Of a stretch of DNA of 64,000 nucleotides, positions 2,565 to 43,303 are shown one piece after another; position 1 is the first letter of the stretch; each line of letters opens with the position of its first letter. The position numbers and the translations under genes are program-made. The notes under the pieces are model-generated. The model was not told where the DNA came from, searched no databases, and saw only the letters and a list, made by a program, of their open reading frames with translations. This DNA is from Comamonas suwonensis (lineage in GTDB: Bacteria > Pseudomonadota > Gammaproteobacteria > Burkholderiales > Burkholderiaceae_C). The stretch lies in NCBI RefSeq assembly GCF_012844455.2, contig NZ_JABBCQ020000003.1, forward strand, positions 62,001 through 126,000, given 5' to 3'.

Positions 2565-3473
2565 TTATTGCCCCGCTTGGGCCAGGTAAGGTTCAATGAC
2601 CTTGGCGAGCCAGTTCACGCAGGCAGAGACGCGTGGTGCCATGTGTTTGCGATGAGGGTACAGCAATGAAACCGGCATGGGCGCAGCGGTAAGGTCGGGC
2701 ATGACTTTGACGAGAAAGCCTTGATTGACCAGTGCCTGGACGCCATGGGCAGGAGCCTGGATCAGCCCCAGGCCGGCAACGCAGGCGGCTTCGTAAGCAT
2801 CAGCACCATTCACGACGAGTGCACAGCGCATGGGCTCGACCACCCGCTTGGGGCCGATTCGGTATTCCCAGCCAGCTCCTTGGGTGCCGAGCTTGCTGGC
2901 GTAGTGAATGATCCGATGCTGTGCCAGGTCTGCAAGCGTGTGGGGCGTCCCGTGCTGGCTCAAATAAGCAGGGCTGGCCAGGTTGCACATTGCCATCATG
3001 CCCAGCGGGCGTGCAATCAAGCCGGTATCTGCCAGCGCGCCAACACGCACCACGCAGTCGAAGCCTTCCTTGACCAAGTCAACCAGATGGTCGCTGGTAC
3101 TGATGCCTACTTCCAGCAGGGGGTGCAAGGCCAGAAATTCGGGCAGCTGGGGCATGACGACATCGCGCGCCAGCGTGGTGGGTAACTCAATCCGCAGACT
3201 CCCGTGCAAGCCGCTTGCAGCGGGCTGAAACATGCTTTTCAGCTGCTCCGCATCATTAAGCAATGCCTTGCAGCCGTCCAGAAAGCGTTCGCCATCGGTT
3301 GTAAGGCGTACCTGACGTGTCGTGCGCTGTAGCAGGCGGGTGCCGATGTGCTGCTCCAGCTGTTGCACGACGGTGGAAACGCGGCTTTTGGTCAAATTCA
3401 GTTGCTCGGCAGCCTGAGTGAAGCTTTGCAGCTCGGCTACACGGTCAAAGATGCGAATTGAGTCGAGGTCCAT
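2565..3473 (-). CDS. LysR-family transcriptional regulator
   Basis: A 302-residue protein of normal LysR length. Residues 1-60 form the winged helix-turn-helix (FTQAAEQLNLTKSRVSTVVQQLE, SxV-type recognition helix), and from about residue 90 a periplasmic-binding-like effector domain follows. ATG at 3473 is preferred over the TTG one codon earlier. The gene is divergent from the dehydrogenase at 3586, the classic arrangement for a LysR protein controlling its neighbour, so it probably regulates that gene and itself. The effector is unknown. The sequence resembles the large LysR subgroup often linked to small oxidoreductases. Confidence 0.9.
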   Translation of the reverse strand: MDLDSIRIFDRVAELQSFTQAAEQLNLTKSRVSTVVQQLEQHIGTRLLQRTTRQVRLTTDGERFLDGCKALLNDAEQLKSMFQPAASGLHGSLRIELPTTLARDVVMPQLPEFLALHPLLEVGISTSDHLVDLVKEGFDCVVRVGALADTGLIARPLGMMAMCNLASPAYLSQHGTPHTLADLAQHRIIHYASKLGTQGAGWEYRIGPKRVVEPMRCALVVNGADAYEAACVAGLGLIQAPAHGVQALVNQGFLVKVMPDLTAAPMPVSLLYPHRKHMAPRVSACVNWLAKVIEPYLAQAGQ

Positions 3474-3492
3474 CAATTGATTGTATTTTTTT

Positions 3493-3526
3493 AATAAACA
3501 GTGTGATCTTTTTTGACGGGTTTATT
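3493..3526. promoter_or_regulatory. Candidate LysR operator in divergent promoter region
   Basis: Inverted arms AATAAAC (3493-3499) and GTTTATT (3520-3526) are separated by 20 bases in the AT-rich space between the divergent LysR and dehydrogenase genes. Position and symmetry suit a regulator binding site, but the arms are short and AT-rich, so chance is possible. Confidence 0.3.
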
Positions 3527-3585
3527 CTTTTTTTATGAATTATTAAAGTCACTCCATCGCAACCACGAACCTTCAGGAGATGAAC

Positions 3586-4353
3586 ATGACGACATCCAAC
3601 CCTCGCATTGCTCTGATTACCGGTGCCAGCCGTGGACTGGGCCGCAACGAAGCGCTCAAGCTGGCACAGCAAGGTGTGCATCTGATAATTACCTACAAAG
3701 ACAATGAGCAGCAGGCCCATGAAGTCGTGCAAGAGATCGAGGCTCTGGGCAGCCGGGCTGTGGCGCTGCGCCTGGATGTGGCAGACAGCAAGACGTTTGA
3801 TGCCTTTGTGGCGAAGGTCCAAAGTACGCTGAAGGCGACCTGGCAGCGCGATCAATTCGATTATTTGGTCAACAACGCCGGGATCGGGCTCACGGCACCG
3901 TTTGCCGAAACGTCGGAAGAGCAGTTTGACCTGCTCGTCAGTATTCACCTCAAGGGTCCTTTTTTCTTGACTCAAAAGTTGCTGCCCCTGATCAAAGACG
4001 GTGGTCGAATCATCAACACCTCTACCGGTTTGACGCGCTTCACCTTTCCTGGCTATGCCGCCTACGCCGTAATGAAGGGCGGTGTTGAGGTAATGACGCG
4101 CTACATGGCCAAGGAGCTGGGAGCCCGTGGAGTCACCGTCAACACCATTGCTCCAGGTGCCATTGAGACTGACTTTGGCGGCGGCATGGTGCGCGATAAC
4201 TCACAAGTCAATGCGCATCTGAGCGGTCTCACGGCCATGGGGCGTGTGGGGCTGCCCGACGATGTGGGGGGCGCTTTAGCTGCGATGCTGTCTGAGGGGA
4301 ACCATTGGGTCACGGCGCAGCGCATTGAAGTGTCGGGCGGCATGATGCTCTGA
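3586..4353 (+). CDS. Short-chain dehydrogenase/reductase (SDR)
   Basis: A classical SDR of 255 residues. It has the N-terminal NAD(P)-binding glycine motif TGASRGLG, the NNAG structural motif, a serine in the STSTG stretch and the catalytic YAVMK (Y-x-x-x-K). The C-terminus (VTAQRIEVSGGMML) matches FabG-like SDRs that end in a cofactor loop plus GG. The ATG at 3586 is chosen because AGGAG lies six bases upstream; the ATG at 3580 abuts it. The gene is divergent from a LysR regulator that probably controls it. It could reduce a ketone, quinone or sugar; substrate specificity cannot be read from sequence. Confidence 0.9.
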   Translation: MTTSNPRIALITGASRGLGRNEALKLAQQGVHLIITYKDNEQQAHEVVQEIEALGSRAVALRLDVADSKTFDAFVAKVQSTLKATWQRDQFDYLVNNAGIGLTAPFAETSEEQFDLLVSIHLKGPFFLTQKLLPLIKDGGRIINTSTGLTRFTFPGYAAYAVMKGGVEVMTRYMAKELGARGVTVNTIAPGAIETDFGGGMVRDNSQVNAHLSGLTAMGRVGLPDDVGGALAAMLSEGNHWVTAQRIEVSGGMML

Positions 4354-4370
4354 GCACCAAGCCATTGAGT

Positions 4371-4410
4371 CCCACAAAAAAGCCGGCATTCGTGCCGGCT
4401 TTTTTGTGGG
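4371..4410. terminator. Bidirectional rho-independent terminator
   Basis: A perfect 18-bp inverted repeat (4371-4388 and 4393-4410) closes on a TTCG tetraloop. The GC core GCCGGCA is flanked by A6 and T6, so it can terminate transcripts from both the SDR gene and, in the other direction, the convergent argA gene. Confidence 0.92.
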
Positions 4411-4482
4411 TTGAGGTGTGCAGGGGGCCAAGAGAGTCATTAAAAAAACGGCCAGCCAGACACCCCTTGCACCAAGCTGCGG

Positions 4483-5829
4483 CTACAGTTTTTTGACCAG
4501 AACCTGGCTCTTGCGGCTCCAGTTGTATTGGGCTTGGCGCGCTTCGGGTAACCATTCGGGGTCCACGGGCTGAAAGCCGCGCTTGATGAACCAGTGCATG
4601 GTGCGCGTGGTCAGCACGAACATGGTGTCACAACCCAGGGCGCGGGCTCTTTGTTCGATACGCTTGAGCAGCTTTTCGCCGTCGCCCGTGCCCTGGCTCT
4701 TGGGTGAGACGGTGACGGCGGCCATTTCGGCGGTCTTGGCTTCGAGGTAGGGGTGCAGGGCCGCGCAGCCAAAGATCACGCCGTCGTGCTCAATGATGGT
4801 GTAGCTGGCGATGTCGCGCTCGATTTCGGTACGGTCGCGCTTGACCAGCGTGCCGTCGCGCTCGAAAGGCTCGATCAGCTGGATGATGCCGCCCACGTCG
4901 TCAATCGAGGCTTCACGCAGCTCTTCAAGCTTTTCGTCGATGACCATGGTGCCGATGCCGTCGTGCACATAAATTTCCAGCAGCAGCGCGCCATCGGTGG
5001 AAAACGGCAGGATATGGCTGCGCTCCACGCCGTGCTCGCAGGCGTGCACGCAGTGCTGCAGGTAAAAGCCGACGTCGGTGGGCTCTTGTGCCGGGGGCAG
5101 CTTGGCCAGCATGCGGCGGGCGGCGTCCAGGGGCAGCTCGGTGTCGATGGGGTTGGTCTCGTCGGCCGGGGCCGTGGGGTCCATGCGGATGCCGGGCACT
5201 TCGGTCAGGAACAGCAGTTTGTCGGCCTTGAGTTCAATGGCCACGCGGGTGGCGACTTCTTCCATGCTGAGGTTGAATGCTTCACCGGTGGGTGAGAAGC
5301 CAAAGGGCGATACCAGCACCATGGCTTCGGAATTCAGCGCGTTGCGAATGCCTTCCACATCGACCTTGCGCACGAGACCTGAGTGCATGAAGTCCACGCC
5401 GTCCACAATTCCCACGGGACGGGCGGTGAGGAAGTTGCCCGAGATGACGCGCACGCGTGCACCGGCCATGGGAGTGTTGGGCAAGCCCTGGCTGAAGGCG
5501 GCTTCAATCTCGTAGCGCAATTGGCCTGCGGCTTCTTGCGCGCAGTCGAGAGCGATGGAGTCGGTCACGCGCATGCCGTTGTAGTAGCGCGGTTCCTGGC
5601 CTTTGAGGCGCAACTGCTCGTTGACCTGAGGGCGAAAGCCATGCACCAGCACGATTTTGACACCCATGGCCTGAATCATGGCCAGGTCCTGGACGATGGA
5701 GCTGAGCTTGCCTGCATCAATGGCTTCACCGGTCAGGCCCACCACAAAGGTCTGGTGTCGGAACTTGTGGATATAGGGAGCCACAGACCGGAACCAGGGG
5801 ACAAAGGTGAAGTTGAAGACGGTGGACAT
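4483..5829 (-). CDS. argA: Amino-acid N-acetyltransferase (N-acetylglutamate synthase)
   Basis: A 448-residue protein with the ArgA layout: an N-terminal amino-acid-kinase-like domain (residues about 25-290, which binds the feedback inhibitor arginine in this family) and a C-terminal GNAT acetyltransferase domain (about 300-440, with SPKSQGTGDGEKLL as the acetyl-CoA loop region). It catalyses the first step of arginine synthesis, glutamate plus acetyl-CoA to N-acetylglutamate. ATG at 5829 gives the usual N-terminus (MSTVFNFTFVPWFRS); a TTG at 5877 would add 16 residues of low plausibility. Transcribed alone; convergent with the SDR gene. Confidence 0.95.
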   Translation of the reverse strand: MSTVFNFTFVPWFRSVAPYIHKFRHQTFVVGLTGEAIDAGKLSSIVQDLAMIQAMGVKIVLVHGFRPQVNEQLRLKGQEPRYYNGMRVTDSIALDCAQEAAGQLRYEIEAAFSQGLPNTPMAGARVRVISGNFLTARPVGIVDGVDFMHSGLVRKVDVEGIRNALNSEAMVLVSPFGFSPTGEAFNLSMEEVATRVAIELKADKLLFLTEVPGIRMDPTAPADETNPIDTELPLDAARRMLAKLPPAQEPTDVGFYLQHCVHACEHGVERSHILPFSTDGALLLEIYVHDGIGTMVIDEKLEELREASIDDVGGIIQLIEPFERDGTLVKRDRTEIERDIASYTIIEHDGVIFGCAALHPYLEAKTAEMAAVTVSPKSQGTGDGEKLLKRIEQRARALGCDTMFVLTTRTMHWFIKRGFQPVDPEWLPEARQAQYNWSRKSQVLVKKL

Positions 5830-6516
5830 GGCGGTGCGCGAAAACCTCGAAAAGGGTAAAAAAGGCCCGCGTTCCAATGATTGTGGTCACGCAGGCCTGC
5901 GGCGCAAAGTGTAGCGGCTACTTGCGGCTCTCGCCCGCTTGTGGCAAGGATTTGTGTGCGCAGATCGCGCAGTCTGTGGGGCGGAGCAAGCAGTGCTTTC
6001 AAAAAAAGAGCAGCATGCGCTTAATGTGGGCTTTATTGAAAACATTTCGCCCTCGAAACTATTGCAGATCAAGTGCAAGCAGCTTTTATATTGATAGCAA
6101 GCAATCTGAGTTGGGTCGCTGACGGCGCTGTAAGCATCACGGATGCAGCGGCACCGGTCGCCGGTGCGCCAAAGTGGCGGCTATCGCGCGCAGACGTTTC
6201 TCGTTGCGCGGTGTTCTCCAGATGGGAAATACGGATCCTGGTCCTCATCATCGAGCCCCAGGCGGGTGGGGAGGGGAGGTCGGGGTGTATCGCAGCAGCG
6301 ACAGCATGCGCCGGCTGGAAGAGGCAATGTCGGGCGAGCCAGGCTAGGCGCAAGAAATCAGCCGTGGATAATGCTCCTTGAAAAAGAGCGGATCGGATGG
6401 CGTTTGCAGAGACCGGGCTGCCGTGGGAAGGCTGCAGGTGCTGCAATTTATTTGCGATCTGAACGCTGACATCTCGTTGTTTTCTCCCCAGTATTCAAGC
6501 GAGCCTCTAGCCATTC
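5830..6516. other. 687-bp intergenic region upstream of efflux operon
   Basis: It lies between divergent argA and the TolC-like gene. Only short overlapping frames of uneven composition occur, none with a recognisable product. It should contain both promoters. A degenerate copy of the dispersed palindrome (TTGATAGCAAGC) lies near 6095-6106. No regulator gene is present here. Confidence 0.5.
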
Positions 6517-19090: not shown

Positions 19091-22000
19091 ATGCCTTTGA
19101 AGATCACCTTCCCCGAGTCGCTCCCCGTATCTGGCCGTCGCCAGGAAATCATGGAGGCCATGGATCGCCACCAGGTCATCATCGTCTGTGGTGAGACGGG
19201 TTCGGGCAAGACCACGCAGTTGCCCAAGATTGCGCTGGCGCTGGGGCGCGGCAAGATCAACGCCACGCCGGATGCGAATGGACAGGTGCGCGGTCACCTC
19301 ATCGGCCACACCCAGCCGCGCCGGATTGCGGCCTCATCGGTGGCCAAGCGCATTGCCGAAGAGCTGAACACGCCGCAAGGCGAGGTGGTCGGTTACAAGG
19401 TGCGTTTTCAGGACACGCTGCAAAAGGGTGCCTCCGTCAAGCTGATGACCGACGGCATTTTGCTGGCCGAAACCCAGACCGACCCGCTGCTCAAAGCCTA
19501 CGACACGCTGATCATCGACGAGGCGCATGAGCGCAGCCTGAATATCGACTTTTTGCTGGGTTATCTGCGCCAGATTTTGCCCAAGCGCCCTGATCTGAAA
19601 GTGGTGGTGACATCGGCAACCATCGATGCTGACCGCTTTGCCAAGCACTTTGAAAGCAAGGACGGCCCTGCGCCCGTCATCATGGTCTCCGGTCGCACCT
19701 ACCCGGTGGAGATGCGCTACCGCCCGTTTGAAGGCGAGAAAGACAAGGATTTGAACGACGCCATTGCCGATGGCGTGGACGAACTCTGGCAAGGCGGCAA
19801 GGGCGGGGACATTCTGATCTTCCTGCCCGGTGAGCGCGAAATCCGCGAAGCCGCTGACCACCTGCGCAAACATTTGCAGCATTCGCCCGTGCTGCGCAAT
19901 GCCGAGGTGCTACCGCTCTTCTCGCGCCTGTCGCAGGCCGAGCAAGACCGCATCTTTGACGGCCACACGGGCCGGCGCATCGTGCTGGCCACCAACGTGG
20001 CTGAGACATCGCTCACGGTTCCGGGCGTCAGGTACGTGATTGACGCAGGTACAGCGCGCGTGAAGCGCTATTCTTTCCGTAGCAAGGTGGAGCAGCTGCT
20101 GGTCGAGCCGATTTCGCAAGCCGCAGCCAACCAGCGCGCCGGCCGCTGCGGTCGTGTGGCCAACGGTATCTGTATTCGCCTGTATGACGAGGTGAGCTTT
20201 ACCAGCCGAGACAAGTTCACGGACCCGGAAATCCTGCGTTCTTCGCTGGCCGGTGTGATCTTGCGCATGAAGTCGCTGGGTCTGGGCGATGTGGTGAACT
20301 TCCCGTTTCTGGAAGCACCTTCGGGCCGTGCCATTGCCGACGGCTACCAGTTGCTGGCCGAGCTGGGCGCGGTGGACGACCGTGGCAATCTGCTGGCCAT
20401 GGGCAAGGAGCTGTCACGCCTGCCGCTGGACCCCCGCGTAGGACGCATGATCCTGGAGGCGCGCGACCGCAAGGCCTTGGCCGAGGTGTTGATCATTGCC
20501 GCAGCCATTTCGGTACAAGACGTGCGCGACCGGCCTATGGAAGCGCAGCAGCAGGCCGATCAGGCCCATGCCAAGTTTGACGACGAAAAAAGCGAATTCA
20601 CCGGCTATCTGCGTCTGTGGAAATGGCTGCAGGATGCGCGTGGCGGCAAGGTGGTGGCTCAGTCGCGCAAGGAAATGGCGGCGCAAAACGCACCGGCATC
20701 CAGACCGAGTACACGCAGCCAGGCATTCTTGCCGGTGAGTCAGCGCAGCAGTGGTGCACAGGTCGAAGGCACGGTCGAGGAGCGCCTGGCGCTGTTCAAC
20801 CCTTCCGAAGTGGAGCAAGCTGCCAGTCACAAAATCAGCAACCGGCAGTGGGAGCAGTTGCTGCGTCAGAACTTCATCAACATTCGCCGCGTGCGCGAGT
20901 GGCGCGATATTCATTCGCAGCTGATGACGGTGGTGAAAGAGCAGAAATGGCTGCTCAATAATGAAGCGGCTGGCTACGACGCGCTGCACCTGTCCATGCT
21001 GGCTGGCCTTTTGGGCAATATTGGCTACAAGGCCGAGGAAAGCGAAACGTACCTGGGTGCACATGGCATCAAGTTTCACGCCCATCCCGGTGCCCATCTG
21101 AGCAAGAAACCCGGCCGCTGGATTCTGGCGGCCGAGCAGGTCGAAACCTCGCGCCTGTATGGCCGGGGCATTGCGGCCATTGAGCCGCAGTGGCTGGAAG
21201 AGGTTGGCGGTCATCTTTTAAAGAAGCAGATGCTGGACCCGCACTGGTCCAAAAAGCAAGCCGATGTGGTGGCGCTGGAGCGCGCCACGCTGTACGGGCT
21301 GGTGGTCTATAACGGCCGCCGCGTCAGCTATGGCCGCATCGACCCGCACGAGGCGCGCAACCTCTTCATCCGTCAGGCGCTGGTCGAGGGCGAGTGGGAA
21401 ACCAAGTGGCACTTCTTGCCTGCCAACCTGAAGCTGATGCGCAAGGTAGAAGAGCTGGAGCACAAGAGCCGCCGTCAGGACGTGCTGGTGGATGACGAGT
21501 TGATCTTCGCCTTCTACGACCAGCAACTGCCGCGCGATGTATACAGCGGTGCGACATTCGACCAGTGGTTCCGCGCCCAGAGCAAGTCCAATCCGGACCT
21601 GCTGCGTCTGTCGCGCGACGAGTTGATGCGCCATGAGGCCGCCGGCATCACCACCGACAACTTCCCCAAGCTGGTCAAGCTGGGCGGCGTGGACTGCGCC
21701 GCCGCCTACCTGCACAGTCCCGGCGACGCGCGCGATGGCGTGACCGTCACTGTGCCGCTGTTTGTGCTGAATCAGGTGAGTGACGAGCGTGCCGAATGGC
21801 TGGTGCCCGGCATGCTCAAGGACAAAATTCAGGCGCTGCTCAAGAGCCTGCCGCAGCGCCCACGCAGTCGCTTTGTGCCGCTGCCCGAAAGCGCCGCGCG
21901 CTTGGCAGAGCTGTTTATACAGAGTGAGCGTTGGGGTCAGGGTGGTTTGATCGATGCCCTGCTTAAGCAAGTACGAGATGAGACTTCGCTGGACGTCAAG

Positions 22001-26219: not shown

Positions 26220-28508
26220 TCAGTTCTTGAGCACTTCTACGACGTAGCGACGCTGACCGGTGGCATCTACCTCGACCTCTCGGCCGTGGACATCCGATTC
26301 AAAGCCGGGAATCTGGGCATCCTGCTCTTCGGCAATGCGCAGATAGTTGAAGATGGCGTCGGCTTTCTCGTTGTAAAGCTCGCCGGGCATGATGAGTGGA
26401 ATGCCGGGGGGGTAAGGCACCAGCATGGTCGCGGCAATACGGCCCTTGAGTTCTTTGACTTCCACCTTCTCTACATTGCCTTGCACCAGTTGGTTGTAGG
26501 CTTCGGCGGGAATCATGGCCATATCGGGTTGTTCGACATACATCTCGCGCATGACCTTGGGCACGTTGTGCTGGCGGTTGAACTGGTGCAGACGGTCACA
26601 CAGTTCACGCAGCCCTGTGTCTGCATACACCTGCGGATGACTTGCCACCAGGTCGGGCAGGACCAGCGCCAGTGGCGTGTTCGCCTCATAGTGCTGCTTG
26701 AAGCTCATCAGCTCGGCTACAAGCGTGCCCCATTTGCCCTTGGTGATGCCCATGGAGAAAAGTACCAGCAGCGAGTAGAGGTTGGTCTTTTCCACCACGA
26801 TCCCACGAGACCAGAGGAATTTGCTGACCACGCTGGCAGGTATCCCTTGCTCGCCCATCTTTCCATCCATCTCCAATCCAGGCATGGTCAGCGTGACTTT
26901 GATGGGGTCGATCATCACAAAGTTGTCACTGAGCTGGTCAAAACCATGCCATTTCCCGTCGGGACGCAGTTGCCAGTCCTTGGGCTGAGCCGGTGGAATA
27001 TGGGTTGAGGCTTTCTGCAGATTCTTGGCCACAATTTCCGGCTGCCAGACCTTGAACCACCAGTCTTTCTTGTCCAGATCAGATTCAATCTGCAGCATGG
27101 CGCGGCGAAACGCCAATGATTCGTCGTGCATTTCCTGCACCAGCGACTCTCCTGCCTTGCCCTCCATCATCTTTGAGGCGATATCGCAGGCGGCGATCAC
27201 CGGGTACAGCGGACTGGTCGAGGTGTGCATCATGAAGGCTTCGTTGAAGCGACCCATGTCCAGTTGGCGTTTGCGGCTGTTGCGCACATGGACCATCGAC
27301 GCCTGGGAGAAGGCCGCCAGCAATTTGTGGGTCGAGTGGGTGGTGAAGACGATGGCGTCCTGCTCGCGCGGCTTGCCCTTGGCCATGCCGTAGTAGTGCT
27401 CGTAGAAGGGGTGGAAGGCCGCATAGGCATACCAGGCTTCATCGAAATGCAGATAGTCGACGGCATTGCCTATCTTTTTTGCAATGCTCTCGGCGTTGTA
27501 GCAAAGCCCGTCATAGGTGGAATTGGTGACCACGGCGATGCGCAGCTTGGCCCCGTTCTTGATGGCTTGGGCGGCCAGCGGGTTTTGCGCAATCTTGGCC
27601 TGCATGGCTTTGGGCGAGAACTGATCCTCGCTGATTGGGCCGATGATGCCGTGGGCATTGCGGCTGGGCGAGAAATACACCGGTATGGCGCCGGTCATGA
27701 TCAAGGAGTGCAGCAGGGATTTGTGGCAGTTGCGGTCGACAAACACCACGTCACCGCGCGCCACAGTGCCATGCCAAACAATCTTGTTGGCCGTCGAGGT
27801 GCCGTTGGTGACAAAGAAAGTATGGTCAGCACCGAAGTTCTTGGCGGCCTCGGTTTCGGCCTGGCGTATCGGGCCGCTGTGATCCAGCAGTGAGCCCAGT
27901 TCGGGTACGGAAATGGACAGATCGCTGCGCAGCGTGTTCTCGCCAAAGTACTGGTGAAAGGCCCGGCCCACGGAGGACTTGGTGAAGGCGACGCCACCGG
28001 CATGGCCGGGCGTGTACCAGGAGTAATTGGACTTGGCCGTGTGCTTGATCAGGGCCTTGAAAAACGGCGGCAGCAAATGCTCCATGTACTCGTCGGCGGC
28101 ACGCATCACCTGACGGGCAATAAAGCTCTTGGTGTCTTCGAACAGGTAGAAGTAGCCACGGGCGTACTTCACCAGATTGGTTGGCACTTTTTCCACGGAG
28201 CCGCGCTCGCCGTAGAAGAAGACCGGCAGATGGGGGTGGCGTGCCAGGTTTTCTTCCAGCAGTTGCTGGATTTGCTCAAACTGCTGAGTGGCATCCTGGT
28301 CGGAGTCGATGGAGATCAGCACGGCCGAAGCGGCCAAATAGGTACGTGCTGCCACGCGCGCATCGTCCAGCGTGAGATTGGCCATCACGCGCTGATTGGA
28401 ATTTTCCAGCTCTTCGGCCAATGAGCGAATGATGGTGCCGCGCAGGCGCGGAGACTCAAATTCGCTGTCGATGATGACGGTCGGATAGTCCAGGGCTTTG
28501 AAAAACAT
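26220..28508 (-). CDS. Orn/Lys/Arg decarboxylase, inducible (CadA/AdiA-like) type
   Basis: A 762-residue PLP enzyme, full length for the group. An N-terminal response-regulator-like wing domain (1-130) precedes the aspartate-aminotransferase-fold core with TPGHAGG (about 167), SVPELGSLLDHSGP, FVTNGTSTANK, HFDEAW and the PLP lysine in THSTHKLLAAFSQ (around residue 390). Sequence detail (ISxxELGSLLDHSGP, NEAFMMHTSTSP) recalls lysine/arginine decarboxylases CadA and AdiA rather than ornithine decarboxylase. It removes CO2 from a basic amino acid and consumes a proton. The antiporter gene 48 bp upstream in the same direction should exchange substrate and amine. Which amino acid is used is not settled. 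Confidence 0.92.
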   Translation of the reverse strand: MFFKALDYPTVIIDSEFESPRLRGTIIRSLAEELENSNQRVMANLTLDDARVAARTYLAASAVLISIDSDQDATQQFEQIQQLLEENLARHPHLPVFFYGERGSVEKVPTNLVKYARGYFYLFEDTKSFIARQVMRAADEYMEHLLPPFFKALIKHTAKSNYSWYTPGHAGGVAFTKSSVGRAFHQYFGENTLRSDLSISVPELGSLLDHSGPIRQAETEAAKNFGADHTFFVTNGTSTANKIVWHGTVARGDVVFVDRNCHKSLLHSLIMTGAIPVYFSPSRNAHGIIGPISEDQFSPKAMQAKIAQNPLAAQAIKNGAKLRIAVVTNSTYDGLCYNAESIAKKIGNAVDYLHFDEAWYAYAAFHPFYEHYYGMAKGKPREQDAIVFTTHSTHKLLAAFSQASMVHVRNSRKRQLDMGRFNEAFMMHTSTSPLYPVIAACDIASKMMEGKAGESLVQEMHDESLAFRRAMLQIESDLDKKDWWFKVWQPEIVAKNLQKASTHIPPAQPKDWQLRPDGKWHGFDQLSDNFVMIDPIKVTLTMPGLEMDGKMGEQGIPASVVSKFLWSRGIVVEKTNLYSLLVLFSMGITKGKWGTLVAELMSFKQHYEANTPLALVLPDLVASHPQVYADTGLRELCDRLHQFNRQHNVPKVMREMYVEQPDMAMIPAEAYNQLVQGNVEKVEVKELKGRIAATMLVPYPPGIPLIMPGELYNEKADAIFNYLRIAEEQDAQIPGFESDVHGREVEVDATGQRRYVVEVLKN

Positions 28509-28556: not shown

Positions 28557-29894
28557 TCAGACTGGCTTGCCGGCGGCGGCTGCGCGCTCTTGGTCCAGGC
28601 GCAGCATGCGGGTGCTCACAAAGCCGTAGAGCGTGAAGCCGAAGATGGTCGCCACGCCGCCTAGCAGCAGGGCTTCGGTGCCCGAGCTGTAGAGGGCCAG
28701 ATAGCTGTAGGCTGCCGCCACCCAGGAGATGATGTTGACCATCAAGGCCTTTTTGGGAGGTACACCGGCCACTTTTTGGATGGTCATCAGCGCAGCCATG
28801 GACAGCACATAGGGCACTAGATTCGTGACAACGGCCAGGTTCGTCAGGGTGTCGAACTGCTTGGTCAGATCGGGGCTGATGGTCAGCAAGGCCAGACCGG
28901 TCTGGGCTGCCAGCAAAATCAGCATGGCCACGATGGGTGTGCCGGCCTTGTTGACCTTGGCAAAGATGGGCAGGAAATAGCCAGTGTCGGCCGAGCTCTT
29001 GAACACTTGAGCGATGGTGAATTGCCAGCCCAGCAGCGAGCCAATGCAGGCCAGCACCATCAGGCCCATGATGATTTGGCCCACCAGCGGAGTGAACATG
29101 TGGGCGAACACCAGGCCAAACGGGGCCGTGGATGCTGCCAGGTCGGGGTTGGAGACAATGCCGGCCATGACATTGGTCGAAGCGATGTAGATCACGGCGG
29201 CACCAATCGTCCCACCGAGCACAGCAATCGGGACGTTCTTTTCGGGGTTCTCTACCGCATCGGAGTTGGCGCAGGCCGATTCCATACCCAGAAAAGCCCA
29301 CAACGTGATTGCCACCGAAGAGCTAGCAGCTTGGAAGTACGACAAGCCATGTGGATTCCATGCTTCGGCATAGGTGCTAGGACTGAACCAGAACCAGCCA
29401 AAGGTGGAGACGCCGACCACCGGCAAAATAACGCCCCAGACGGTGACGCTACCGATTTTGCCAGTGATGCCTGCTCCGCCGAAGTTGGCGAAGGTGGTAA
29501 TCCATAGCAAAGCAATCGTCGTCAGACCGACCCCCATGGGGCTGAGCTTCAAGCCGAAAAGCTCAGTCATATAACCGACCGCCGTGATGCCAATGGCAAC
29601 ATTGGCAATCAGCAGTGAGGCACCATAGGTGTAATTAACCAGGTAGTTTCCGGAGCGGCCAAATGCGTATTCGGCGTATCCACCCATACCGCCAGATTTA
29701 CGGCTCAACATGCCGCATTGGGCAAAACAATAAGCAAGAGCCAGTGAGCCTGTGGCTGTCACCAGCCAGGACAGAATGGAGATCGCCCCGACTTCTGCCA
29801 ATTTGGTGGGTAGCAGCACAATGCCAGAGCCCAGCATATTGACCACGGTAAGCATGGTGAGCTGCACCACGGTCATTTTTTTGCCTTGAGTCAT
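28557..29894 (-). CDS. potE: Basic amino acid/polyamine antiporter (PotE-like)
   Basis: A 445-residue APC-family transporter with about 12 helices. It follows remembered E. coli PotE closely along its length: VVQLTMLTVVNMLGSGI, PTKLAEVGAISILSWLVTA, SRKSGGMGGYAEYAFG, LWAFLGMESACANSDAVENPE and SLLGWQFTIAQVFKSS. PotE exchanges ornithine for putrescine; related CadB exchanges lysine for cadaverine. It is first in a two-gene operon with the decarboxylase, forming a proton-consuming decarboxylation/antiport cycle. AGAGGG sits six bases before the ATG. The assignment to putrescine rather than cadaverine or agmatine is inference. Confidence 0.85.
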   Translation of the reverse strand: MTQGKKMTVVQLTMLTVVNMLGSGIVLLPTKLAEVGAISILSWLVTATGSLALAYCFAQCGMLSRKSGGMGGYAEYAFGRSGNYLVNYTYGASLLIANVAIGITAVGYMTELFGLKLSPMGVGLTTIALLWITTFANFGGAGITGKIGSVTVWGVILPVVGVSTFGWFWFSPSTYAEAWNPHGLSYFQAASSSVAITLWAFLGMESACANSDAVENPEKNVPIAVLGGTIGAAVIYIASTNVMAGIVSNPDLAASTAPFGLVFAHMFTPLVGQIIMGLMVLACIGSLLGWQFTIAQVFKSSADTGYFLPIFAKVNKAGTPIVAMLILLAAQTGLALLTISPDLTKQFDTLTNLAVVTNLVPYVLSMAALMTIQKVAGVPPKKALMVNIISWVAAAYSYLALYSSGTEALLLGGVATIFGFTLYGFVSTRMLRLDQERAAAAGKPV

Positions 29895-32204: not shown

Positions 32205-32300
32205 TGGCGGAAAGCAGCTGGAGTCGAACCAACCCGGGAGCGGCTGACGCCCCCCACCGGGTTTGAAGCCCGGCCGCGCCACCGGGCACGATTGCCTTCC
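32205..32300 (-). tRNA. selC: tRNA-Sec (anticodon UCA)
   Basis: The 96-nt minus-strand sequence starts GGAAGGCA and ends TGCTTTCC-G-CCA, an eight-base-pair acceptor stem with one G-U pair, unique to tRNA-Sec. The anticodon arm GGGC-TTCAAA-CCC has anticodon TCA (complement of 32264-32266). A long variable arm and GGTTCGACTCC T-arm follow, and CCA is encoded. It aligns along its length with remembered E. coli selC. It inserts selenocysteine at UGA in the formate dehydrogenase mRNA. It lies 183 bp downstream of selB, possibly co-transcribed. Confidence 0.97.
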
Positions 32301-32483: not shown

Positions 32484-34409
32484 TCAATGCGTTGCGCTTT
32501 TCCATTGCACATCGGGGCGCAGCAGGTGGGCGTCACGTACGCGGCGCGTGTAGCCTATGCGGTCGAAGAACTCGAGGATCTGAATGGCGCGCTTGCGGCC
32601 AAGACCTGTGGCGTCTCGGAAGGCACTGGCTTCCACTTCACCATTGCGGGTTTGCGCCGCGATGTCCGTGGTCAAGGCTGCCAGCTCATCCATGCGGGCT
32701 GGTGCATAGAACAAGTCCTTGACGACCTGAAACAGCAAACCTTGGCGGGAGAGCTTTTTCAGCAGCTGGCGCACCACTTCTTCACCCGCACTGTGGTCGC
32801 GGGCCAAGTCGCGTACCCAGGGTGGGTCGAAGCGGGCTGCAGCGATGGCGGGCAGCAGTTGCTCGGCCAAGGCTTGCTCGGCGCTGCTGAGCTGGATGGT
32901 GTGCTGCGGCAGGTGCAGCCAAGCGCCTGTGCTGCTGAGCTGTTTTTGTGCCAGCAGCGCATCGACGAGACCTTGATAAAGCGCGTCGTAGCCAGAATTT
33001 TGCAGGCCGGGCAGAGCCATGCGGCGCAGACGCGCGGCGTTGACACCGGGCTCATCCGGGGATTTTTCGTGAAAGCGGGAAAGACTCTCCACCACCTGTG
33101 TTTGCAACTGCTGCCAGCGCTGCTCACCCAGTACCAGTGCATCGCCATTGGCGACGGGCAGCTGGATGGTGTGGGCAATGGTGGTGTCATTCAGCGCATG
33201 GCCGCTGAGGCGCATGAGTTGCGAGCGGGCAATGCCGTGTGGGGCTTGCGCCACTAATGCTGTGAAGTCATGGCGCGTGATGAGCTGTTCCATGGCGTCG
33301 AGGTAGGCCATGCGCTCTGGGCTGCGGCGCTTGCGGGCAGGGGCGTAGGGGTCAAGAATCATGCCGCCCGCGATGGTGTGGCTGGCTTGGGCGTTACGCA
33401 GAATCAGGCGGTCGCCGGGGAGGGTGAAGACGGGTGCATCCAGCACCAGTTGCACGCGTGCCTCGGTACCCGGTTCTATGGATTCGTCTTGCAGCAGGGC
33501 GACATGAGCGGTGGTGCGCTTGGTTCCCAGATGAATATGCACGGGCGTCCATTGCGCAAGGGCCGGGGCTTCGCGGAGCAGGTGCAGATGGATGTCCAGA
33601 CGATCCGTGGCCTGCAGCAGGCGTGGGTCAAGGATCCAGTCGCCGCGTTCGATATCTTCTTTGGCAAGGCCTGCGATGTTGAGGGCGCATCGCTGACCGG
33701 CGACGCCAATGTTGCTGCTCTGGTTTTGTGCATGAATACTGCGTATACGCACGGACTGGCCGCTGGCCGAGTGCACCAGCGTATCGCCCACTTTGACTTG
33801 GCCATTGAAGACGGTACCGGTGACCACGGTACCCTGACCGGGCAGGGTAAACACGCGGTCAACGGCGAGTCTGAACAGGCCATCTTGCGGACGTGCACTC
33901 ATCATCTGGGCTTGCACATGCAGGTGGTCGCGCAGCGCCTGCACGCCTGCGTTGCCGGGCTGGGCAGCGTTGGTTTCAAAGATGGGACTGTCGGCCAGCG
34001 CGGTGACGGCGAGGATGGCTGCGATTTCACGGCGGACATCGGCCAAGCGCTGGGGCAGAACGCGGTCGGCCTTGGTGAGCGCTACGGTGCCCTGCTTGAC
34101 GCCCAGCAGTTGCAGAATTTCAAGGTGCTCTATGGTCTGGGGCATCACGCCGTCATCGGCGGCGACGACGAGCAGGGCATGGTCAATGCCCACGGCCCCT
34201 GCGGCCATGGTGTGCACGAATTTTTCATGGCCAGGTACGTCGATGATGCCCAGCACATCGCCATTGGGCAGGGGGCTGTAGGCATAGCCCAGCTCGATGG
34301 AAATGCCGCGGGCTTTCTCTTCCTTGAGGCGGTCAGTTTCCACGCCGGTGAGGGCGCGAACCAATGTGGTTTTGCCGTGGTCGATATGGCCTGCGGTTCC
34401 GATAATCAT
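32484..34409 (-). CDS. selB: Selenocysteine-specific translation elongation factor
   Basis: A 641-residue GTPase. G-domain motifs: GHIDHGKT (7-14), DVPGHE (about 58-63) and TKAD (about 113-116). EF-Tu-like domains 2 and 3 follow ([14 protein letters not shown]), then a C-terminal string of winged helices, ending in [25 protein letters not shown], which bind the SECIS hairpin. Length is normal (E. coli 614). SelB carries Sec-tRNA to the ribosome at SECIS-tagged UGA codons. It lies 60 bp after selA, the gap being filled by a palindromic repeat, and precedes selC. Confidence 0.97.
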
Positions 34410-34423
34410 GAGTGTCAGTCTTA

Positions 34424-34473
34424 TTTTGATAGCTGCTAGCGCTTATAAATAAAGCGCTGCAAGGCATTTTTAT
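34424..34473. repeat. Dispersed palindrome copy between selA and selB
   Basis: TTTTGATAGCTGCTAGCGCTT leads into an imperfect inverted copy (AAAGCGCTGCAAGGC) and a T-rich tail. It fills the selA-selB gap and overlaps the last bases of selA. Related copies occur at 49058, 51117 and 61975. Confidence 0.6.
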
Positions 34474-35948
34474 ATAAAGTTCTCAGTGGGCGCAGGCCCA
34501 GAGCTGTTTCCAGCCAGTTGTGCAAGCTGATCGACAAACAGGGCTTGCGCAGCACTTTCAAGACAGCGCAGGTCCAGCCAGAAAGCGTCGTCATGCAGGC
34601 GGCCAATCACAGGGCGGGGCAGAGCGCGAAAGCGTGCTTCGAGCTGGGTCAGCTGGCGGCCTGCCTGCTTGCCACTTGCCGGATACATCTTCAGGCCAAA
34701 GCTGGGCAGGTTTTCAACGGGAAGGGCGCCGCTGCCAATCTGGCTGTTCATGGCGGCAGTTTCCACCACAAAGCCTTGTCCCAGCGCTTGCTGCAGCAGC
34801 GGCAGCAAGTATTCAGCCTGCGCCTGCATGTCGTCTGCCTTGCGGGTGAAGAGGCGCAGCGTGGTCAGCTCTTCAGCCAGTTTTTCGGGATGGAGGTACA
34901 GGCGTAGCGTGGGCTCCAGCGCGGCCAGCGTGATCTTGCCGACTCTCAGGGCGCGTTTGAGGGGGTTCTTCTTGATCTGAGCAATTAACTCCTTCTTGCC
35001 CACGATGATGCCGGCCTGAGGGCCGCCCAGCAGTTTGTCGCCGCTGAAGGTGACGATGTCGGCGCCAGACTCTACGGTCTCGCGCACGGTCACTTCATAG
35101 GGTAGGCCCCAGTCGCGCATGTCGATCAGGGTGCCGCTGCCCAGGTCCACGATCATGGGCAGTTGGTGGTCGTGCGCAATACGTGCCACATCGGCGTCGC
35201 TGACGGCCTTGGTAAAACCGGTGATGGCGTAGTTGCTGCAATGCACCTTCATCAGCGCGCCGGTGTGCTCGCCGATAGCGCCGGTGTAGTCTTTCTCGTG
35301 TGTGCGGTTGGTGGTGCCGACTTCGATCAGTTTGGCGCCCGCGCGGGTCATCACGTCAGGGATGCGGAAAGCGCCGCCAATCTCTACCAGCTCGCCGCGC
35401 GATACGATGACTTCTTTGCCCAAGGCCATGGTGGACAGCACCAGCAGCACGGCGGCGGCATTGTTGTTGACGACGGTTGCGGCTTCTGCGCCGGTCAGCT
35501 CGCAGATCAGCGACTCGACCAGATCATCGCGGTCGCCGCGGCTACCGTCTTGCAAGTCGTATTCAAGGTTGGCGGGGGAACTCATGGCCTGCACCACGGC
35601 ATCAATGGCGGCCTGCGGCAGCAGGGCTCGGCCCAGATTGGTGTGCAGCACGGTGCCGGTGAGGTTGAGCACCGGTTGCAGGCGCGGCGCAAAGCGGGCC
35701 TGCAGCTGACGGTGAGTACTTTGCACAATGCTGGTGAGGTTGGCTTGCACGGGCTGACCGGGTTGATCGGCTGAACCCAGCAATTGCTGGCGCAACTGCG
35801 TGAGTACGGTGCGGGTGGCCGTGGTGCAGGCGTCCAGTCCGTAGGCTTCGCGCAGCGGCTGCATTTCAGCGACCAGCAAAACCTTGTCCACGGCGGGCAG
35901 CTGTGAGGGGTGCGAAATTTCGGCGGAGGTCGCTGCGGTGGTGCTCAT
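34470..35948 (-). CDS. selA: L-seryl-tRNA(Sec) selenium transferase
   Basis: A 492-residue PLP enzyme that converts seryl-tRNA-Sec to selenocysteinyl-tRNA-Sec using selenophosphate. It has the SelA N-terminal domain (PAVDKVLL near the start), the LNLTGTVLHTNLGRALLP stretch, VVNNNAAAVLLVL, and the PLP-binding lysine in FSGDKLLGGPQAG (around residue 300). Length is slightly above E. coli SelA (463) because of a short C-terminal tail. It forms a likely operon with selB and follows fdhE by 91 bp with a weak terminator hairpin between. SelD (selenophosphate synthase) is not in the window. Confidence 0.97.
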   Translation of the reverse strand: MSTTAATSAEISHPSQLPAVDKVLLVAEMQPLREAYGLDACTTATRTVLTQLRQQLLGSADQPGQPVQANLTSIVQSTHRQLQARFAPRLQPVLNLTGTVLHTNLGRALLPQAAIDAVVQAMSSPANLEYDLQDGSRGDRDDLVESLICELTGAEAATVVNNNAAAVLLVLSTMALGKEVIVSRGELVEIGGAFRIPDVMTRAGAKLIEVGTTNRTHEKDYTGAIGEHTGALMKVHCSNYAITGFTKAVSDADVARIAHDHQLPMIVDLGSGTLIDMRDWGLPYEVTVRETVESGADIVTFSGDKLLGGPQAGIIVGKKELIAQIKKNPLKRALRVGKITLAALEPTLRLYLHPEKLAEELTTLRLFTRKADDMQAQAEYLLPLLQQALGQGFVVETAAMNSQIGSGALPVENLPSFGLKMYPASGKQAGRQLTQLEARFRALPRPVIGRLHDDAFWLDLRCLESAAQALFVDQLAQLAGNSSGPAPTENFI

Positions 35949-36039: not shown

Positions 36040-37005
36040 TCAGGCGGCGGGGTCTACCAGTTCGTTGCTGAGCTCGCCCTCTTGCTCTTCGGCTACGGCC
36101 ACAAACAGCAGGGGGTTGGCGCTGGCACGCTGGAACTTTGTTTCGCTCATCAGCAGGTCCAGCATCAGGCTGGCCAGGTCGTCAGCCAGAGGCTCGGCCA
36201 TGGGGTTCTTTTCCTGATTGACGATCTTGCGGTAGCAGCCGCATTCCTCGCAGGTTTCTGCCAAGACCTCTTCACCAGCGCCTTCAAGGCCTTGGTAGTG
36301 AATGCCCTTGGTGGATTCGCAGTGCGTGCACTTGACGCGCACCATATGCCATTCGCAGGCGCAGGTGCCGCAGTGTGCATAGCGGTGGCCGGCCATCTTG
36401 CCGCCGATGCGTACAACGCTGGCGACAGGTTCACTGGCGCAGATCGGGCAGATGCTGGCGGGGTCGGTATAGGGTACGTCGCGGGGGCTGAGGCTGGCCG
36501 AGCGTTGGGTGAAGGTGACTTGCAGCGCTGCCATGATGAAGGGGGCCATGCCTACGTGGCGGGCGGCCACTTCTTTTTGCAGCAGCTTTTTGGCAATGTC
36601 TGCTCGGGCTTCGGGAGCCAGTGCGCGCAGTTCTTTGAGCAGGGGCTGCAGTGGTGCGGGCAGGCCCTCGCTGCCTTGCAGCGTATCGAGCATATTGTCC
36701 AGCACGGTTTGCCAGGCGGGGTCGATGGTGTCCACTGCGGGCAGCAGGGGCATGGAATGCTCCTGGGCGCGAGCCATCAGCTCAGCGTCAGGAGCCGTGA
36801 TTTCCAATGTGGCCACAGCCTTGTGCTGTGCATCCATGATTTGCGCCACAAACTGCAGGTAGTCGGCAATGGGGTTGCCATTGGCCAGCTGGCGCAGGCG
36901 CGCAGCGCGCTCGGCGAACAGGCTGCTGACTTGGGGCAGCAAGATGCGGGGAAAGCTGGTGTGATCCAGTGCTTCGATTTCACCGGGTTGGAGGATGCGT
37001 TGCAT
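36040..37005 (-). CDS. fdhE: Formate dehydrogenase accessory protein FdhE
   Basis: A 321-residue cytoplasmic protein of the FdhE family. It has rubredoxin-like Cys pairs CPIC, CGTC, CTHC and CEECGC in the C-terminal half (from about residue 195), which bind iron in E. coli FdhE. FdhE is needed for maturation of respiratory formate dehydrogenases before Tat export. It sits immediately downstream of the three formate dehydrogenase structural genes. A terminator-like hairpin separates it from fdnI, suggesting lower expression than the enzyme subunits. Confidence 0.95.
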   Translation of the reverse strand: MQRILQPGEIEALDHTSFPRILLPQVSSLFAERAARLRQLANGNPIADYLQFVAQIMDAQHKAVATLEITAPDAELMARAQEHSMPLLPAVDTIDPAWQTVLDNMLDTLQGSEGLPAPLQPLLKELRALAPEARADIAKKLLQKEVAARHVGMAPFIMAALQVTFTQRSASLSPRDVPYTDPASICPICASEPVASVVRIGGKMAGHRYAHCGTCACEWHMVRVKCTHCESTKGIHYQGLEGAGEEVLAETCEECGCYRKIVNQEKNPMAEPLADDLASLMLDLLMSETKFQRASANPLLFVAVAEEQEGELSNELVDPAA

Positions 37006-37095: not shown

Positions 37096-37722
37096 TTACT
37101 TGTCTTCGCCAGTGACCTTGCGGAACCACAGAGGGTGGTGGAAGCGTGCCCAGCCGCGTGTCACGGTGCCGCGGGTCATGGCGCGGATGGTGCCCTTGGT
37201 CCAGATCGCTGCGTAGATGTGCGCAATGATCAGGCCGATCAGGCCAAAGGCGCTGATGGCATGTACCAGAGAGCCGATGCGAACAACGGTCACGGGCAGA
37301 TTCCACCAGGCGCGCCACATCAGTACACCAGTCACTGTCAGGCCGAGCATGCACAACACCAGCAACCAGAAGAGAACCTTCTGGCCACCGTTGTACTTTT
37401 CAACAGGGGGCATTTTTTCATGCTCGCCATTGACCAGTGCACCTACGTTCTTGAGCCATTCCACATCGCGGTCCTTGATGATGTTCAGCTGCCAGAAGCG
37501 GAAGAACATCATGAGGAAACCGACAGCCATGACGACGCCGATGTAGGGGTGCAGGATGCGCGTCCAGGGGCCGCCACCGAACAAGTTCGTCATGAAGAAG
37601 AACGAGGGGTGGAAGAACGCCAGGCCGGACAGTGCCAGCAGCACGAAGCTGATGGCAACTACCCAGTGGTTGACGCGCTCGCCGGCGGTGTAGCGCTGGA
37701 TGTCACGAGAGCGGCTTTTCAT
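37096..37722 (-). CDS. fdnI: Formate dehydrogenase gamma subunit, cytochrome b556
   Basis: A 208-residue membrane protein with four helices (about 18-38, 58-76, 115-135, 148-170). Histidines in [18 protein letters not shown] and [11 protein letters not shown] fit the diheme b-type cytochrome that passes electrons from the beta subunit to the quinone pool. It starts inside the beta-subunit stop (ATGA overlap at 37719-37722), so the two are translationally coupled. FdnI and FdoI cannot be told apart by sequence reading. Confidence 0.95.
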
Positions 37723-38642
37723 GAGCGGTTCTCCTTGCTCTGTTCAGCTTTGCGGTCTTCTTCGGCTTCCAGCTCCTCGGGCACCTCCAGAGGGCCCTTG
37801 GTGATGTAGTGGAAGAAGCTGCCAACCGCCGCTGCACCGAGAGCTGCCAGAGCCAGAGGCTTGGCAACACCCTTCCACAGCGACACCATGGGGCTGATGG
37901 ATGGATCGTCCGGCAGGCCCTTGTACAGCGAAGGCTTATCCGCATGATGCAGAACGTACATCACGTGGGTGCCGCCCACACCTTGTGGGTCATAGAGGCC
38001 AGCCTTTTCGTAGCCGCGTTCCTTGAGGTCTACGACACGGCGGGATGCCTGTTCCTTCATGGCATCTTTGGTGCCGAACTGGATAGCGCCCGTGGGGCAG
38101 GTTTTGACGCAGGCGGGTTCCTGACCAACAGCCACGCGGTCTGAACACAAGGTGCACTTGTACGCCTTGTTGTCCTTCTTGGAGATGCGCGGAATGTTGA
38201 ACGGGCAGCCCGTCACGCAGTAGCCGCAGCCCACGCACTGGTCTTGCTGGAAGTCCACGATGCCGTTGGCATATTGGACGATAGCGCCAGGCGAGGGGCA
38301 GGCTTTCAGGCAGCCTGGATCTTCGCAGTGCATGCAGCCGTCCTTGCGGATCAGCCACTCCAGGTTGCCTGTAGCTTCGTTTTCGTACTCGGTAAAGCGC
38401 ATCACGGTCCACGACTGATCGGTCAGATCGGTCGGGTTGTCGTATACGCCGGCAGCTGCCGTACCGACTTCATCACGAAGGTCGTTCCACTCCATGCAGG
38501 CTGTCTGGCAAGCCTTGCAGCCAATGCATTTGGAGACGTCGATCAGTTTGGCGACTTCGCCCGCGTGCGCGTCGCGCGCACTGGGGGCGGGAGTCGTCGT
38601 GGCCGAGCGGCGTTTGATATCGAGAGACATGGTTGAGGACAT
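37719..38642 (-). CDS. fdnH: Formate dehydrogenase beta subunit, iron-sulfur protein
   Basis: A 307-residue ferredoxin-like protein with four [4Fe-4S] cysteine clusters: [37 protein letters not shown] and CTLCSDR...CVKTCPTGA. One C-terminal membrane helix (about 255-275) anchors it, as in FdnH/FdoH. It transfers electrons from the catalytic subunit to the cytochrome b subunit. It follows the alpha subunit by 12 bp. Confidence 0.96.
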
Positions 38643-38654
38643 CAGCGTGGCTCC

Positions 38655-41600
38655 TTAGATCTTTTCCACCTTCACGAGGAAGGTCTTGGATTCAGGGGTC
38701 AAGCTGTTACCGTCACCCACGGAGGCTGTCAGGTTGTTAGCCAGATAGCCCTTGCGTCCCGTTGTGGAGAAGCCCCAGTGAATCGGCACCCCCACGTGAT
38801 GGATGGTCTTGCCATCAATCTGCATGGGCTTGATGCGTTTGGTCACCACAGCCACGGCCTTGATAAAGCCACGCTTGGACGAAACCTTGACGTTCTGTCC
38901 GGTTGCAATACCCAGCTCCTTGCCCAGGGCCTCGCCAATTTCCACGAACTGCTCGGGCTGAACGATGTTGTTCAGCTGAACGTGCTTGGTCCAGTAGTGG
39001 AAGTGCTCGGTCAGACGGTAAGTCGTACCCACATGTGGGTAGTCCTTGGGGTCGCCCTGCGTGCCCTTGGCGGTGTCGAGGATACGGATGATCGGGCTGA
39101 TGACGGCCAGCTTGTTCTTGGGATACATGGGGTTGTATCCAAGCGGGTTGTCAAACGCCTCATAGTGGGTCGGGAACGGTCCTTCTATCAGACCCTTTCG
39201 GGCAAACAGGCGGGCCACACCTTCGGGGTTCATGATGAACGGGTTGGTGGTTTCCGGCGGCAAGGTCGGGGCAATATCTGGTACGTCAGCTCCACCCCAG
39301 TTTTTGCCATTCCACTTGATCAGAACGCGGTCAGGGTTGAAAGGCTTGCCTTCACGGTCGCACGATGCGCGGTTGTACAGAACGCGGCGATTGGCAGGCC
39401 AGGCCCAGGCCCAGTTCAGCGTATTGCCAATGCCAGTCGGGTCACTGTTGTCGCGGCGAGCCATCTGGTTGCCAGATGAGGTCCAGGCTCCCGCCCAGAT
39501 CCAGCAGCCGCCCAGCGTGGTGCCGTCATCGCGCATTTCGCCAAAGCCGCCCAGTTGCTCGCCCGCTTTACGGATGAGCTTGGTGGGGTCCTTGGGATCG
39601 AATAGATCTACCAGTGCGCGGCCGTTGTATTCCTTGGCCACTTCCTCGGCAGAGGGGTGAGCGGATTCGGCGTAAGGCCAGAACAGGTTGGTAATGGGAT
39701 CGGCAAACTTGCCGCCATCCTTCTGATAGAGAGCCTTTAGGCGCAGGTGCAGGCCCGACATGATCGCAATGTCAGTCTTGGCTTCTCCTGGTGGTTCTGC
39801 AGCCTTCCAGTGCCACTGCAGCACGCGTGACGAACTGACCACGGCACCTTCTTCTTCGGCGAAGCAGGTGGTTGGCAGACGAAAAACCTCAGTCTGAATA
39901 GAGGCCGAGTCCACATCGTTGAATTCGCCGTGGTTCCTCCAGAATTCGGAGGTTTCTGTAACCAGCGGATCCATGATGACGAGGAACTTCAGCTTCTTGA
40001 GGCCTTCGCGCACGCTGTTACTGTTGGCCAGCGCTGCCAGTGGATTAAAACCTTGGGCGATATAGCCGTTGATTTGACCCTTGGTCATCAGCTCGAACAC
40101 CTGCAGCATGTCGTACTGCTTGTCCAGCTTGGGCAAATAGTCAAATGCCCAGTTGTTCTCAGCAGTCGCAGCGGGACCCCACCATGCCTTCATCAGGCTG
40201 ACGTGGAACTTGGGCGTGTTCGACCAGTAGTTCATCTGACCAGGACGCAGCAACTTTGGTGTGCGCGAGGCGATGTACTGGCCGTAGTCTTGCTCAGCTT
40301 CGTTTGGAAGCGTCAGGTACCCTGGAAGCGAAGCAGACAGAATGCCCAGGTCGGTCAGACCCTGAATGTTGGAGTGGCCACGCAGCGCGTTCATGCCGCC
40401 GCCAGCGATACCGATATTGCCCAGCAGCAGTTGGATCATGGCGCCGGTGCGCAGAATCTGCGCACCTGTTGTGTGCTGAGTCCAGCCCAGGGCGTACATG
40501 ATGGTCGCAACGCGACCGGCTTCGGCGGTCGATGCCAGTTTCTCGCACACGTGCAGGAATTTTTCCTTGGGTGTGCCGCAGATGGATTCCACCTTTTCTG
40601 CGGTGTAGCCAGCGTAGTGCTTCTTGAGCCACTGATAAACGCAGCGGGGGTGTTCCAGCGTGGGATCGACCTTCACAAAGCCGTCGTCACCCAGTTCGTA
40701 GTCCCACGACGCCTTGTCGTAAGTACGCTTTTCAGGGTTGTAGCCCGAGAAAATACCTTCGTCGAACGCAAAGTCCTCCCGCACGATGAACGAGAAGTCC
40801 GTGTAGTTCTTCACATAATCGTGATGAATCTTGTCGTTCGTGAGCAGGTAATTGATCACGCCACCAAGAAAGACAATGTCCGAGCCAGAGCGGATCGGTG
40901 CATAGAAGTCAGCCACGGATGCCGAGCGGTTAAAGCGCGGATCGACCACCATGAAGTGAGCCTTGTTGTGCTCCTTCGCTTCGGTCACCCACTTAAAGCC
41001 GCAGGGGTGTGCTTCGGCGGCATTACCGCCCATGATCAAAATAACGTCCGCGTTCTTGATGTCGACCCAATGGTTCGTCATCGCTCCACGGCCAAACGTC
41101 GGGGCAAGACCTGCCACCGTCGGGCCGTGTCAGACACGTGCTTGGTTATCGAGTGCAAGAAGGCCCCAGGAACGGGCCACTTTGTGCGTGATGTAGCCGG
41201 CTTCATTGCTGGCGGCCGAGGCGGCCAGCATGCCGGTAGTCAGCCAGCGGTTGACCTTCTGGCCTTTTTCGTTGGTTTCAACGAAGTTGGCATCACGGTC
41301 ATCCTTGAGCAGCTTGGCAATGCGGTTCAACGCATCGTCCCAGGACATGCGCTTCCATTCGGAAGAGCCGGGGGCGCGGTACTCTGGGTACTTGAGGCGG
41401 TTAGGGCTGTGGACGAAGTCCAGCAGCGATGCGCCCTTGGGGCACAATGTTCCGCGATTGACCGGGTGATCCGGGTCGCCTTCCACGTGCAGTACGGACA
41501 GACGGGTATTTTTGGCGCCGTCGCCCAAGGAGTACATCAAGATTCCGCAGCCTACTGAACAGTAGGTGCAGGTTTGGCGAGTTACGGTGGTGGATGACAG

Positions 41601-41720
41601 TTTGTACTGCCGCACCTCAGCAAGAGCAGCTGTGGGTGAAAAACCCATCAGCGCCAGACTGGAACCCGCCAGAGTCGAACCAGTCACTTTCATGAACTGG
41701 CGTCTGGAGAATTGGACCAT
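38655..41720 (-). CDS. fdnG: Selenocysteine-containing formate dehydrogenase alpha subunit
   Basis: One 1021-residue selenoprotein, not two genes. Translation from ATG 41720 reaches an in-frame UGA at 41132-41130 (residue 197), inside DNQARV-U-HGPTVAGLAPTFGRG, the exact place of Sec196 in E. coli FdnG. It continues in the same frame to 38655. The N-terminus is a Tat signal (SRRQFMK, residues 5-11, cleavage after ALA). Cysteines 51, 54, 58 and 93 bind [4Fe-4S]; the rest carries the bis-MGD molybdenum or tungsten cofactor. It oxidises formate to CO2 on the periplasmic side and passes electrons to FdnH/FdnI. Confidence 0.97.
41087..41132 (-). promoter_or_regulatory. UGA(Sec) codon with bacterial SECIS hairpin
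   Basis: Immediately after UGA (41132-41130) the mRNA folds over 41129-41087. The lower stem is CACGGCC/GGCCGUG (7 bp), then an internal loop, then CGG/CCG, a bulged U (41116), GGCA/UGCC and the apical loop GGUCU (41111-41107). The bulged U plus GGUCU loop are the elements SelB recognises in E. coli fdhF and fdnG. Confidence 0.93.
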
Positions 41721-43084: not shown

Positions 43085-43303
43085 GCGAATCCTTGTTTGT
43101 AGGGTTCACGCAATGTAAGCGAGTCTGTGGCTTGTAAACATCATGTCTTTTATAAGACTCGGGCTTTGAACGGTGGCACAATGTCTCTCGCAACTTCAGG
43201 CCTTCCCTTGCCACAGTCGCATCCGCCAACCGGTACAGCCGTGTCGCGGAAGGTACTACAAACCAGCTAATGCTCTCCAAAGGAGAGCGGAGGTCAGCGA
43301 AAC

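Follow-up and report, generated by a model that had tools for sequence, protein, structure and literature searches.

How should a gene be read when two open frames in the same register meet end to end at a single UGA codon? In the window examined here (the whole 64-kb stretch of DNA that was analysed, from a Comamonadaceae-type bacterium), a first-pass annotation had described two such frames on the minus strand and proposed that together they encode a selenoprotein. The frames lie exactly where that annotation placed them. Specifically, the reading frame opens with an ATG at 41720 and ends with a TAA at 38655, and the UGA at 41132-41130 (codon 197) is its sole internal stop. We find that the gene is fdnG of an fdnGHI-fdhE-selA-selB-selC cluster, and that codon 197 is almost certainly decoded as selenocysteine, such that the full-length enzyme would be made.

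Translation through the UGA yields a protein of 1021 residues (38655-41720, minus strand) that matches the catalytic (alpha) subunit of formate dehydrogenase-N, as had been proposed. It scores 1450.3 bits against TIGR01553 (cut-off 814.2), with residues 4-1020 covering positions 2-1009 of the 1009 in the model, and it aligns end to end with Escherichia coli FdnG (1kqf_A) at 1503.9 bits. In this alignment the UGA faces position 196 of 1kqf_A, an unknown residue (X) that we take to be Sec196 of the E. coli enzyme; the alignment thus agrees with the earlier claim that the codon occupies the selenocysteine position. The flanks cited for that claim, DNQARV and HGPTVAGLAPTFGRG, are both present in the translation. 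The motif SRRQFMK, seen by eye at residues 5-11, is presumably a twin-arginine (Tat) leader motif. The nearest named matches are from Comamonas (91%), Delftia (90%) and Acidovorax (88%). Judged by its sequence, fdnG belongs to a family that is already known and named, and no unusual feature was found. A search with the FNR-type promoter consensus, permitting at most one mismatch, gave five matches in the 64-kb window, none of them upstream of fdnG.

Under the standard code, a table-11 ORF caller divides fdnG into pieces at 41130-41720 (196 amino acids) and 38655-41117 (820 amino acids), the second of which starts with a GTG at 41117 and begins MAGLAP. Because a bare caller lists this downstream ORF, one might consider it to be a separate gene. 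However, the two pieces fall consecutively on one TIGR01553 model, which indicates that the abutting frames are not a product of chance, and on one solved protein chain. Moreover, the Fe4S4 domain (PF04879, 64.3 bits, cut-off 22.7) is confined to the upstream piece, and the molybdopterin (PF00384) and dinucleotide-binding (PF01568) domains are matched by the downstream piece. A product starting at MAGLAP would consequently lack the iron-sulfur site, as stated previously. Finally, both of the annotated homologues examined are recorded as single coding sequences, one spanning 2579-5644 across a TGA at 3167 (L117) and the other spanning 2931-5981 across a TGA at 3516 (L155). We therefore regard two separate genes as extremely improbable. 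The related expectation of a gene broken in two by automatic callers is accurate for the bare ORF caller but not for these two RefSeq annotations. Among the best 15 plasmid rows, fdnG is named in 4; the other 11 have no feature or annotation and prove nothing, because gene coverage in PLSDB has gaps (the H1 record holds 4 features).

The RNA at the UGA codon is predicted to form a SECIS hairpin. Specifically, a match to SECIS_3 (RF01989) at 41077-41135 on the minus strand scores 85.3 bits (gathering score 63), starts one codon before the UGA, and covers both this codon and the bases immediately 3' of it. The stretch folds with -27.4 kcal/mol (z -2.31), a value equalled by 5 of 200 shuffles, and its fold is only moderately better than those of the shuffled sequences.

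The codons that form this hairpin are evidently under constraint at their synonymous sites. Mean normalised synonymous-codon entropy is 0.333 in the SECIS region (17 codons, from codon -1 to 17), compared to 0.637 for 60 codons upstream and 0.584 for 73 codons downstream. The lower value for the SECIS region gives a one-sided Mann-Whitney p of 2.3e-5, which overstates independence because the 127 rows of the alignment are related and include just 40 distinct SECIS stretches. These rows, one from the window and 126 from relatives, are those retained by a strict filter on motif and flanks. Omitted were the two loci that are the window itself (L001 and L011), two loci by choice (L116 and L117), five variants (L124, L130, L131, L145 and L146) and one Cys homologue (L139) in which the exact motif is absent, a locus that begins downstream of the site (L113), and loci without fdnG. 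Freely varying codons do exist inside the region, such as the His codon after the UGA.

The pairing pattern can also be followed through this alignment. Of the 16 pairs in the RF01989 model, 11 are standard without exception across the 127 rows, and a further 2 are standard in 126 of 127. The weaker pairs are 8-48 (95 of 127), 12-44 (106 of 127) and 11-45 (117 of 127). These pairs and the modest fold score speak against decoding as selenocysteine, but neither carries weight. Changes on both sides are observed for pairs 24-30 (A-U, C-G, G-C), 21-33 (G-C, A-U), 22-32 (G-C, U-G) and 11-45 (G-C, C-G).

Could the UGA instead be a nonsense mutation that split an fdnG gene formerly encoding Cys? The presence of two ORFs under the standard code, and the existence of Cys homologues among more distant relatives (L139 and L156), are in line with such a pseudogene. 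Set against this are the SECIS_3 match at the UGA, the adjacent genes for selenocysteine machinery, and a frame devoid of any other stop. The UGA is also retained. At the family level, 25 of 120 genomes, including the one under study, carry a match at E <= 1e-200, and every one of the 25 contains one TGA. The same is true of both same-genus matches, which are 95 and 89% identical, and the position is the same wherever it was read. Conservation of both the UGA and the SECIS element thus refutes the pseudogene, to which we assign a vanishingly small probability.

Direct reading of the codon gave TGA in 100 of 115 loci, two of which (L001 and L011) are the window itself. The remaining 15 are L002 through L010, which are more distant paralogues and selD-family matches from the genome under study, L113, which begins downstream of the site, and L031 through L035, for which a separate reading gave TGA. 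A frameshift or a Cys codon in close relatives had been named at the outset among the observations that would overturn the selenoprotein assignment. Neither is seen, and TGA is present in the 24 family matches beyond that of the window and in both same-genus matches. A sequencing error or frameshift in the window, in favor of which nothing was found, is likewise refuted by the occurrence of the same UGA in many other genomes and by the fact that both sides of the codon share one frame, and its probability is practically nil.

Across the phylum, 34 of 299 genomes (again including the genome under study) have a match, with 40 strong places in total. One TGA is present in 38 of these, 8 of which are known from stop count alone, and none is present in 2. 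Loci L118 through L146 have TGA at the site in 28 of 29 cases, the exception being L139, which has TGT. The other stop-free place, L156, also has TGT. These Cys homologues are 61% (L139/L157) and 60% (L156) identical, and both are outside the family. The genome that carries L139/L157 (G339) has no SelB over cut-off, and in this instance the exchange of Sec for Cys, as judged from the codons and model scores, is accompanied by absence of SelB over cut-off. Genome G369 has a SelB over cut-off, and holds both a UGA-bearing alpha subunit (L122, 70% identical) and the Cys-bearing L156. Of 5426 E. coli genomes, 5377 carry a match to the 5'-terminal 2.2 kb of fdnG.

The genes downstream of fdnG, all on the same minus strand, include those for the partner subunits and for selenocysteine decoding. 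First are fdnH, for the beta (Fe-S) subunit (37719-38642; TIGR01582, 474.4 bits, cut-off 334.7), and fdnI, for the gamma (cytochrome b) subunit (37096-37722; TIGR01583, 185.8 bits, cut-off 115.85, but below the cut-offs of two narrower gamma models with 228 of 341 and 188.8 of 339). The accessory protein gene fdhE (36040-37005) scores 274.4 bits against TIGR01562 (cut-off 187.65) but is below that of the narrower NF002925 (241.7 of 426). There follow selA, for L-seryl-tRNA(Sec) selenium transferase (34470-35948; TIGR00474, 595.9 bits, cut-off 267.9), selB, for the selenocysteine-specific elongation factor (32484-34409; TIGR00475, 470.1 bits, cut-off 242.25), and selC, the tRNA-Sec gene with anticodon tca (32205-32300 by ARAGORN; RF01852, 78.1 bits at 32209-32300), which is the sole match over cut-off in the whole genome. 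A selD gene with no internal stop is located on another contig (C13, 440 bits). The selenoprotein reading is thus supported by SECIS_3, tRNA-Sec, SelA, SelB and SelD in the genome as well as by the UGA kept in relatives.

With these genes present, the steps known from E. coli would be expected to operate here. SelA, with selenophosphate provided by SelD, would generate Sec-tRNA(Sec), and SelB would carry this charged tRNA and dock on the SECIS hairpin formed at the UGA. Readthrough should then yield the full 1021-residue catalytic subunit, in which the predicted Sec would ligate the Mo or W of the bis-pyranopterin cofactor. E. coli FDH-N oxidizes formate in the periplasm and passes electrons to quinone, and by analogy FdnG, FdnH and FdnI would together do the same in this bacterium. 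One could imagine that the UGA serves as a switch, such that a shortage of selenium or Sec-tRNA leads to a stable 196-residue fragment, comprising the Tat leader and Fe4S4 region, with a role of its own. We consider a function of this kind very unlikely, and favor routine decoding of the UGA as selenocysteine.

On the 100-kb scale, the cluster is part of a contig in a 4.72 Mb genome assembled in 67 contigs, and its neighbors are genes of the sucA/sucB type and one for an AI-2E-family transporter. Elsewhere in the window, a SucA RNA motif (RF01070, 82 bits) at 43217-43299 on the plus strand is positioned directly upstream of a 2-oxoglutarate dehydrogenase E1 gene at 43304; this is a known motif in its usual location. 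In addition, an ornithine/lysine/arginine decarboxylase-family gene (26220-28508, minus strand) adjoins a putrescine-ornithine antiporter gene (28557-29894, minus strand).

Does this genome encode any other selenoprotein? RF01989 yields one match when 150 of 2253 first-look candidates are scored. RF01990 yields none, a result that is uninformative because this model was also silent in all 14 control genomes. A candidate on contig C3 (L002, a 35% match scored as having one TGA) was rejected. From MPETRSTCPYCG, its likely start, some 260-odd residues are free of stops, and its stops lie upstream of this point. Searches for RNA families up to E 0.1 gave nothing at this locus, and from its motifs the gene presumably resembles one for assimilatory nitrate reductase.

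The arrangement of genes is retained broadly among relatives. Of 80 named loci, 79 carry the UGA and 70 extend at least 8 kb downstream. In 63 of these 70 long-flank loci, fdnH, fdnI, fdhE, selA and selB all follow fdnG on its own strand, and the locus also contains tRNA-Sec. Among the exceptions, five lack only tRNA-Sec within the flank, one lacks a SelA match, and in one the length filter leaves fdnH and fdnI only.

The five loci without tRNA-Sec (L085, L088, L091, L105 and L111) gave no such gene by ARAGORN or by Rfam at gathering scores, and positions 17500-20000 of L085 gave none even at E 1. A whole-genome search nevertheless recovered one tRNA-Sec of 71-77 bits in each of the five genomes. 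In four, the gene shares a contig with the locus and is found right at the boundary of the fetched flank or slightly past it. The tRNA-Sec of the L088 genome is in DNA with no overlap with the locus. We therefore dismissed this apparent oddity. In L110, from Candidatus Burkholderia verschuerenii, FdhE and SelB each match in two pieces and SelA is not matched between them, and this cluster may be decaying. L052, from a metagenome-assembled Lautropia, has a UGA-bearing fdnG, SECIS_3 and fdnH-fdnI, but other genes seem to intervene between fdnI and fdhE, which is represented only by a partial match (20642-20980) at the locus edge some 8 kb further. Because fdhE is found only at this edge, the sel genes of L052 may be located past the end of the flank.

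Relative to E. coli FdnG (PDB 1kqf/1kqg), the protein described here aligns over its full length, has the same flanks and places its UGA opposite X196, and its gene is followed by those for the beta and gamma subunits. The E. coli region examined holds fdnG (the annotated name), fdoH, fdoI and fdhE together, whereas here fdhE is followed by selA, selB and tRNA-Sec. This latter order, fdnG, beta, gamma, fdhE, selA, selB and tRNA-Sec, is shared with NZ_CP142112 (L117) from Pseudomonas putida WBC-3. That replicon is a 46 kb plasmid typed as conjugative, in contrast to the large contig and sucA/sucB-type surroundings of the present cluster. A Tn3-family transposase gene is about 1 kb away from the plasmid cluster. 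Given the conjugative type and the nearby transposase, the fdn-sel trait on NZ_CP142112 looks mobile; selD is absent from the genes listed for the 14.6 kb stretch examined.

In the earlier literature, formate dehydrogenase alpha is described as an only selenoprotein clustered with key selenium genes, together with horizontal transfer of that trait (PMC5029168), and selB plus selC are treated as the signature of Sec decoding, along with transfer of the Sec-decoding genes (PMC1273633). The system is therefore of an already known kind and raises no new question. It forms a clean textbook case in which one respiratory selenoprotein is encoded beside its decoding genes, and it is useful for annotating such genes correctly.
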